NCBI RefSeq assembly: GCF_037996645.1
Contig: NZ_JBBMXV010000004.1
Location: forward strand, 1-64,000
DNA from: Halalkalicoccus tibetensis
GTDB lineage: Archaea; Halobacteriota; Halobacteria; Halobacteriales; Halalkalicoccaceae
Reading direction: 5' to 3'
DNA: 64,000 bases
This document shows, piece by piece, positions 12,987 to 58,243 of the stretch. The stretch's first letter is position 1. Each line of letters begins with the position of its first letter. The translations under genes and the position numbers were made by a program. The notes beneath the pieces were generated by a model. It did no database searches. It saw nothing but the letters and a program-made list of their open reading frames with translations, and was not told where the DNA came from.

Positions 12987-13142
12987 CGGTGGCCGGCGCG
13001 AACGGAACGCTTTGCGTTCCGTGAGCGGGGCGGGGAAAGGCTGGCGTCCCTGAGAGCGGTCGTCCAACCGGACGACCGCGATGCGGCCCTGGTGGACATG
13101 CAAAGGGCGAGCGAGGGCTGCCAAGCCCGAGTGAGGGCTTTC
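12987..13142 (-). repeat. Modular hairpin element, copy 1 (3' of metallophosphoesterase)
   Basis: In plus-strand order it holds CGGTGGCC (12987-12994), a perfect 9-bp hairpin with 3-base loop (13002-13022), GGCTGG (13039-13044), a perfect 10-bp hairpin with 4-base loop (13056-13079), ATGCGGCCCTGGTGG (13081-13095), ACATGCAAAG (13096-13105), a small GGGCT/AGCCC hairpin, and AGTGAGGGCTTTC (13130-13142). The last box overlaps the stop codon of the minus-strand gene. The boxes recur in the same order at 58055-58243, where the hairpins have different sequences but the same geometry. Confidence 0.75.
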
Positions 13143-13818
13143 AGAGGTAGGCCCGAAGCTCCGAGAGCGGGGGGAACTCCAGGGTCTCGTCGCCGTCCTC
13201 GTCGCGGACGACCGGTCGGAACGCCCCCGGGGGGCCCAGAAGCGGCGAGCGGAGCGCCTCCGCCCGCGAGACGTCGACCCCGGCGGCCAGCCGGGTGAAC
13301 GCCGGAAGCACGAGTGCCCGGCCGCCGCCCGCGGCCGGCCCCAGCAGGTAGCAGGGGCGTTTTCGGCCCTCGATCGTGATCGCCGGGTGGACGTGTCCGA
13401 GGACGTAGCCCTCGGCGCTCCCGGCGCGCTCGTGGCCGTGACAGGCCAGTACCTCGCCCACCCGATGGGTGCTCACCGTCCCGTCGAGAAGCGAGTCGAG
13501 CATCGTGTCGTGGTTGCCCCGCGTCACGACCAGCCGCGCGCCCGCCTCCGCGACGCGGCGTTCGAACGCCCGGAGGCTCTCCTCGACGCCGTAGGGGAGG
13601 TGATCGAAGCTGTGTAGCAGGTCGCCGGCGACGACGACCTCCTCCGGTTCGAACTCCGAGAGCAGTGCTCCGAGGCGTTCGAGCACGTCCTCGCGTTCGC
13701 CGAGCGGGAGCTCGACGCTCGAGGCGCGGTCCTTTCCCAGATGGACGTCCGCGAGCACGAGCGTTTCCTCCGCGGGGAAGTAGGCCGCCCGGTCCCGGAA
13801 GACGCAGTCCTCGAACAC
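13141..13818 (-). CDS. Metallophosphoesterase
   Basis: A calcineurin-like phosphoesterase of about 225 residues. Metal-binding motifs appear in order: LVLADVHLGKD (DxH), VVVAGDLLHSFDHLP (GDxxH-like), VVTRGNHD (GNHD), ACHGHE and GYVLGHVHPAI (GHxH). It resembles archaeal ICC-like or ligase-associated phosphoesterases; the substrate, a nucleic acid or nucleotide, is unknown. No in-frame ATG exists near the expected N-terminus. GTG 13818 is the best start, giving VFEDCVFRDRAAYFP. The frame stays open further upstream but overlaps the J-domain gene. The stop lies inside the last box of the modular hairpin element. Confidence 0.82.
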   Translation of the reverse strand: MFEDCVFRDRAAYFPAEETLVLADVHLGKDRASSVELPLGEREDVLERLGALLSEFEPEEVVVAGDLLHSFDHLPYGVEESLRAFERRVAEAGARLVVTRGNHDTMLDSLLDGTVSTHRVGEVLACHGHERAGSAEGYVLGHVHPAITIEGRKRPCYLLGPAAGGGRALVLPAFTRLAAGVDVSRAEALRSPLLGPPGAFRPVVRDEDGDETLEFPPLSELRAYL

Positions 13819-58054: not shown

Positions 58055-58243
58055 CGGTGGCCTCGCTTCGCGGCCCGTGGCCGCGAATCGAACGGGGAGG
58101 TGTGCGGCTGGGCCCTCAGCGAGCGATTCCGGTCGGAATCGCTCGCAATGCGGCCTGGTGGTCCTCGGAAATCTTCGATTTCCGGGACGCCGAGAGACCG
58201 TGAAGCGGTCTCTCGTAGCGACATGCAAAGAGTGAGGGCTTTC
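58055..58243 (-). repeat. Modular hairpin element, copy 2 (between gyrB and gyrA)
   Basis: In plus-strand order: CGGTGGCC (58055-58062), a perfect 9-bp hairpin with 3-base loop (58067-58087), GGCTGG (58106-58111), a perfect 12-bp hairpin with 4-base loop (58119-58146), ATGCGGCCTGGTGG (58148-58161), two extra hairpins CGGAAATC/GATTTCCG (58166-58184) and CGAGAGACCG/CGGTCTCTCG (58191-58215), ACATGCAAAG (58221-58230) and AGTGAGGGCTTTC (58231-58243). It ends 10 bases before the gyrB stop codon. Confidence 0.75.

Follow-up and report, generated by a model that had tools for sequence, protein, structure and literature searches.

Two non-coding segments of the window (the whole 64,000-nucleotide stretch of a Halalkalicoccus tibetensis contig that was analysed) carry the same short boxes separated by hairpins of different sequence, which raises the question of what kind of element keeps its fold while its stems change. 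The original prediction offered either a functional RNA or a structured mobile repeat. The anatomy on which it was based is confirmed, as each copy contains the five boxes, identically ordered and oriented, and the hairpins between them are perfect, with stems of 9 and 10 bp in copy 1 and of 9 and 12 bp in copy 2. Beyond the original prediction, copy 1 has a third hairpin, and copy 2 has gained two cassette hairpins and lacks that third one. The two copies comprise the following features.

12987-13142, plus strand: copy 1, whole element, core and 3' module (covariance model R1 at 12987-13095, R2 at 13088-13142)
12987-12994, plus strand: copy 1, box A, CGGTGGCC (sequence; conserved in alignments A1-A3)
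13002-13022, plus strand: copy 1, hairpin 1, 9 bp, loop TTT (sequence, repeat finder)
13025-13044, plus strand: copy 1, box B, GCGGGGCGGGGAAAGGCTGG (sequence)
13056-13079, plus strand: copy 1, hairpin 2, 10 bp, 4-nt loop (repeat finder)
13081-13095, plus strand: copy 1, box C, ATGCGGCCCTGGTGG (exact-box search)
13096-13110, plus strand: copy 1, box D, ACATGCAAAGGGCGA, with the invariant GGGCG (sequence, class-wide modules)
13111-13132, plus strand: copy 1, hairpin 3, loop GCCA, flanked by GGGCGA and GAGGGC (sequence, covariance model)
13133-13142, plus strand: copy 1, box F, GAGGGCTTTC (sequence, gene placement)
58055-58243, plus strand: copy 2, whole element, gyrB on the right and gyrA on the left (sequence, covariance model)
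58067-58087, plus strand: copy 2, hairpin 1, 9 bp, loop CGT (sequence, repeat finder)
58119-58146, plus strand: copy 2, hairpin 2, 12 bp with loop GGTC (13 bp and 2 nt in the repeat finder)
58148-58161, plus strand: copy 2, box C, ATGCGGCCTGGTGG (exact-box search)
58166-58184, plus strand: copy 2, cassette hairpin 1, CGGAAATC-TTC-GATTTCCG (repeat finder, hairpin scan)
58191-58215, plus strand: copy 2, cassette hairpin 2 (repeat finder)
58221-58243, plus strand: copy 2, boxes D and F, ACATGCAAAG AGTGAGGGCTTTC, with hairpin 3 lost (sequence, covariance model)

An unfiltered covariance search of the window returned copy 1, which had helped to build the model, at E=2.5e-19 and copy 2, which lay outside the building set, at E=3e-8; as nothing else in the window scored better than E=0.026, the resemblance of the two copies is not a matter of chance. 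Folded as single-stranded DNA, copies 1 and 2 give z-scores of -3.7 and -7.1, respectively. The original prediction also placed the beginning of both copies at the 3' end of a minus-strand gene, which is true of their right ends: the last two bases of copy 1 lie inside the stop codon (13141-13143) of the minus-strand phosphoesterase gene on its right, and the right end of copy 2 lies 10 nt from the gyrB stop. The gene to the left of copy 1, used as a DNA query against the sister genomes, yielded no convincing ortholog; copy 1 and locus L205 of genome G005 have their right-flank gene in common, and no left-flank match was found for the pair.

Searching for the exact boxes gave five sites in this genome and, in a sister species, one true copy (L074); a further candidate (L075) was rejected as a chance coding match. 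Four of the exact-box copies were used to build R1, a covariance model of the core. It matched 20 places here, with counts of 8-23 per genome in six further members of Halalkalicoccus and few, weak matches elsewhere; the stretches around such model matches were the genomic sequence worked on. The 3' module (CCTGGYGGACATGAAAAGGGCGA-hairpin-GAGGGCTTTC) was found in 22 of 59 genomes of the class Halobacteria, with up to 39 matches. The consensus runs from CGGTGGCCGGCGCGA through hairpin 1 (loop often ACTYYC) and GAGCGGGGCGGGGAAAGGCTGGCGTCC to hairpin 2, often a loopless palindrome centred on GATC, and onward from ATGCGGCC(C)TGGTGG through optional cassettes, ACATGAAAAGGGCGA and hairpin 3 (loop GCCA) to GAGGGCTTTC. 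The smallest recurrent unit is the 3' module of 50-60 nt (CCTGGYGG, ACATGAAAAGGGCGA, a hairpin and GAGGGCTTTC); hairpins 1 and 2, as well as double-hairpin cassettes, are additions seen in larger elements. Across 102 class-wide modules, GGGCG never varies, A and GAGGG hardly vary, and pairing of the AAAG/CTTT flank is maintained through a few compensated changes; the 3' module thus forms one long hairpin, interrupted by a conserved internal loop rich in purines (GGCGA/GAGGG) beside a short AAAG/CTTT helix. As side observations, G014 holds 39 mostly short modules (CCTGGCGGATGAAGGGCGAG-hairpin-CGAGGGCTTCGGCGG; L338-L357) within GCGGT-rich intergenic DNA, two 3' modules stand in direct tandem at 274-366 of L285 (Halapricum sp. 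CBA1109), and GGGGGGGGACNAAGG, with an N in the assembly, takes the place of hairpin 2 at L123 (G000:C4:149601-149674), probably through an assembly gap or error at the hairpin.

Both segments are members of a hairpin-rich family of DNA elements, not labelled before, that are positioned exactly between the genes of salt-loving archaea; the boxes and positions of these elements have long been kept, and their stems are rewritten self-complementarily. Rfam gave no match at the gathering threshold or at E<=1, a DNA similarity search of plasmids gave no real match, the 3'-module pattern gave no hit in viral contigs, and a scan with a GyrB fragment brought up viral GyrB relatives only. No description of this hairpin family was found in the literature, although most subscription journals lay outside the search and a prior description is therefore possible.

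The proposal that structure is kept while sequence changes extends from the two copies to aligned relatives, in which stem changes are compensated; with further copies in related genomes and compensated stems, neither of the outcomes that would have refuted the original prediction was obtained. In an alignment of 100 copies, fitted to the model and hence favouring structure, 96.9% of stem cells pair and every pair has changed on both sides, with 452 double-change cells versus 112 in shuffles and 23-30 in slid controls (in which 26-39% of cells are paired). A separate hairpin scan recovered 331 hairpins, 281 of them perfect and 267 distinct in sequence, as opposed to 29 in shuffled stretches that were somewhat shorter. 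The covarying stems by which a structured RNA is recognised are thus present here. For fifteen inner stems, both orientations of the loop are found, and inversion is seen at orthologous loci (L141 vs L113/L149; L115 vs L154; L161 vs L122), the loop of copy 2 hairpin 1 reading CGT here and ACG in its G001 ortholog L161; the self-complementary loop GATC occurs in 34 hairpins. G.U-type mismatches outnumber A.C-type ones by 42:21 in hairpins 1 and 2 and by 16:9 in hairpin 3 (cells that are not independent), and by 24:16 in the separate scan. Loop inversions, loopless palindromes, nested hairpin insertions and the weak G.U excess together favour processes acting on DNA hairpins, so that the original pair of alternatives leans toward the mobile repeat; class-wide locus conservation and exact gene-boundary spacing also leave room for a cis-acting function, and the G.U-type excess for some role of the folded single strand, RNA included. 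Published work documents that template switching homogenises the arms of inverted repeats and inverts their spacers (PMC8604942). Homogenisation of stems within a genome by gene conversion was considered and is unsupported (16.5 same-genome best matches versus 13.3 expected). Stems are more similar between orthologs than between other copies, and their similarity is not raised within genomes, a pattern that fits vertical descent with fast rewriting and does not fit within-genome homogenisation.

The positions of the element are more stable than its stems. Both flanks of 18 of the 20 copies in this genome are common to a copy in another species (23 clusters), and within the genus nearly all copies occupy the same syntenic loci, where their hairpins differ strongly between species. 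At least eight loci also carry the element in other families, including the 3' ends of gyrB and of aCPSF1 (the termination nuclease). Outside the genus, 28 of 104 elements (a few redundant) agree with a Halalkalicoccus element in gene, side and strand, versus a chance estimate of 1-2% (60 gene ends among ~7,200, two flanks). The genes shared as element sites include aCPSF1, gyrB and a TPR-like protein gene, with a glutamate-dehydrogenase-like gene and acyl-CoA dehydrogenase further named by eye, and Halalkalicoccus has the eIF2B-like element locus in common with G014 and G079. Boxes are 85-95% identical at orthologous loci, compared with 67% at four-fold sites (partly an effect of ascertainment), so that some constraint acts in place. 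Among relatives, the element at aCPSF1 is present, decayed or absent, and it is missing from the rpoL locus of G004 and from the eIF2B-like gene of G002; these losses show that it is dispensable there.

Signs of insertion are also observed. Double-hairpin cassettes interrupt hairpin 2 (L144, L159) or hairpin 3 (L193, L118, the G001 rpoL locus) and, at L112, precede hairpin 1. In five genomes of different lineages, acyl-CoA dehydrogenase genes carry a minimal unit (L225, L238, L255, L293, L299) at their 3' end, with direct repeats of that gene end, 36-57 bp in length, on either side (alignment z 11-18). This arrangement suggests mobility, and a sixth case was seen by eye at another gene (L309). 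Such repeats are rare and not fully identical, and almost all of them occur at a single gene family; most other elements scanned have no significant flanking direct repeats. A Y1 (PF01797) transposase is present in G003, G004 and G015, and no match was obtained in the element-rich G000, G001, G002, G014, G079 and G068; no Y1 transposase accounts for the element. Boxes A and F in Halalkalicoccus are not inverted repeats of each other, terminal inverted repeats being seen only in the related elements of G068. At L304, L316 and L317, at least 390 bp around the module are apparently identical in three genomes of different families; this stretch was rejected as the right end of an IS, as its ORFs show a long non-coding stretch between regulator-like and RPA-like genes, and is probably part of a shared larger replicon.

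Given these observations, we assign roughly an even chance to the reading that the two segments represent an ancient composite hairpin element that is spread across Halobacteria, was mobile in origin, is now mostly inherited vertically and has its arms rewritten by template switching. Copy number, covariation, shared loci, loop inversion, nested cassettes and spacing are direct observations; template switching, an enzyme and the way in which the element spread are inferences. Under this reading, the element would persist at gene boundaries by vertical descent, and perfect complementarity of the arms would be maintained by DNA synthesis that changes template from one arm to the other, so that one is copied from its partner and the loop is sometimes inverted. 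Double-hairpin cassettes inserting into loops and slots of the element would change the arms further, as perhaps would exchange of hairpins between copies, and the GGCGA/GAGGG internal loop by the AAAG/CTTT helix is probably recognised on the folded strand by a candidate protein. The DNA-level hairpin dynamics and the patchy losses favour an old mobile element. Against it, no transposase or recombinase was identified (Y1, the family searched, is absent from copy-rich genomes), most copies are old and locus-stable, unlike those of an active mobile element, the boxes are constrained in place, and the direct repeats are few.

The main rival, which is possible though on the doubtful side, is a cis-acting gene-boundary element, either a minus-strand terminator or 3'-UTR signal just past the stop codon or an insulator or chromosome-organising site, with hairpins under selection in place. 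The right end falls -2 to +4 nt from the stop codon of a right minus-strand gene in most cases and 34-42 nt before the start codon of a right plus-strand gene, and the left side lies mostly 15-35 nt from stop codons and 45-84 nt from start codons, as judged from gene calls by a codon-usage script with some errors. Flank contexts at 30 loci are (-,-) at 11, (-,+) at 9, (+,-) at 8 and (+,+) at 2; the 11:2 orientation bias in codirectional pairs supports a signal at gene ends, as do the same-gene placements outside the genus, aCPSF1 and gyrB included, and the finding that hairpins can terminate transcription in Haloferax volcanii (PMC7237163). However, the 9 divergent loci have no nearby gene 3' end, the element is lost or decayed at aCPSF1 in many genomes, and large, free length changes through extra cassettes, like the loop inversions, would be odd for a precise signal. 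A 5'-UTR riboswitch was rejected because it is incompatible with the orientations of the genes. A role in place is nevertheless favoured by the exact spacing and by the deep conservation of loci, and a mobile origin is compatible with such a role, as in a domesticated element. A further reading, which we regard as rather unlikely, would have a class-wide element mark gene boundaries through recognition of its folded single strand by a candidate recombinase or chromosome protein, with template switching keeping the fold and covariation arising by mutation rather than RNA selection.

Quite unlikely is a multicopy family of trans-acting structured RNAs transcribed from the plus strand. Strong covariation would be expected of it, the purine-rich internal loop and G.A mismatches of hairpin 3 (35 cells, the commonest mismatch there) would suit it, and G.U exceeds A.C-type mismatches by about 2:1, yet structured RNAs are generally expected to show a larger excess than this. 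Moreover, Rfam is silent, the loops are often self-complementary or inverted, and no shared promoter was seen upstream of the copies inspected, in an unsystematic inspection.

Integron attC sites abut stop codons and combine conserved boxes with variable stems on a folded strand. The element is alike in all three respects, its cross-family association is mostly with the 3' end of the right-hand gene, and copy 1 and L205 share that gene, no left-flank match having been found, but an attC-like folded single-stranded DNA recombination site that moves or shuffles genes bearing it at their 3' ends is highly improbable, given the static synteny of loci within the genus, the divergent loci with no 3' end, the several hairpins per element and the lack of an integron context.

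The family provides a natural case of strong covariation together with signs of DNA-level arm rewriting, and thus a caution for RNA discovery in which covariation counts as proof of an RNA. Haloarchaeal intergenic DNA also gains a widespread, hitherto unlabelled component, located at housekeeping genes such as gyrB, aCPSF1 and rpoL, and the choice between mobile relic and gene-boundary function becomes a directly testable question.

Several known systems offer partial parallels. Mitochondrial double-hairpin elements are short GC-rich hairpins with varying stems; the present element is similar (a likeness, not homology) in its adjacent hairpin pairs, its stem-varying copies and their insertion at new sites (L144, L193, the G001 rpoL locus). 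Palindromic repeats fill intergenic DNA in volvocine algae (PMC2670323). The present element differs from both in its archaeal chromosomal setting, fixed boxes between hairpins, single orientation and cross-family locus conservation. BOX, RUP and SPRITE of Streptococcus pneumoniae are modular, structured intergenic repeats that insert into one another (PMC10969869), and the element shares modularity, intergenic location, secondary structure and mutual insertion with them but has other boxes, rewritten stems and class-wide positional conservation. REP/BIME sequences, served by RAYT/Y1 transposases, are likewise intergenic palindromes with irregular hairpins; unlike them, the element has no Y1 transposase match in several copy-rich genomes, forms no alternating REP arrays and has a composite unit of 150-300 nt. 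Haloarchaeal MITEs resemble it in being non-coding and dispersed, although the Halalkalicoccus element has no terminal inverted repeats and shows no clear short target duplication. In G068 (L318-L330), 3' modules form inverted pairs separated by ~30 bp within a probable MITE whose outer repeats are GTGTTCAGATAAG, and the long inner hairpins there have ACTATTCGACC..GAGAATATCC in common.
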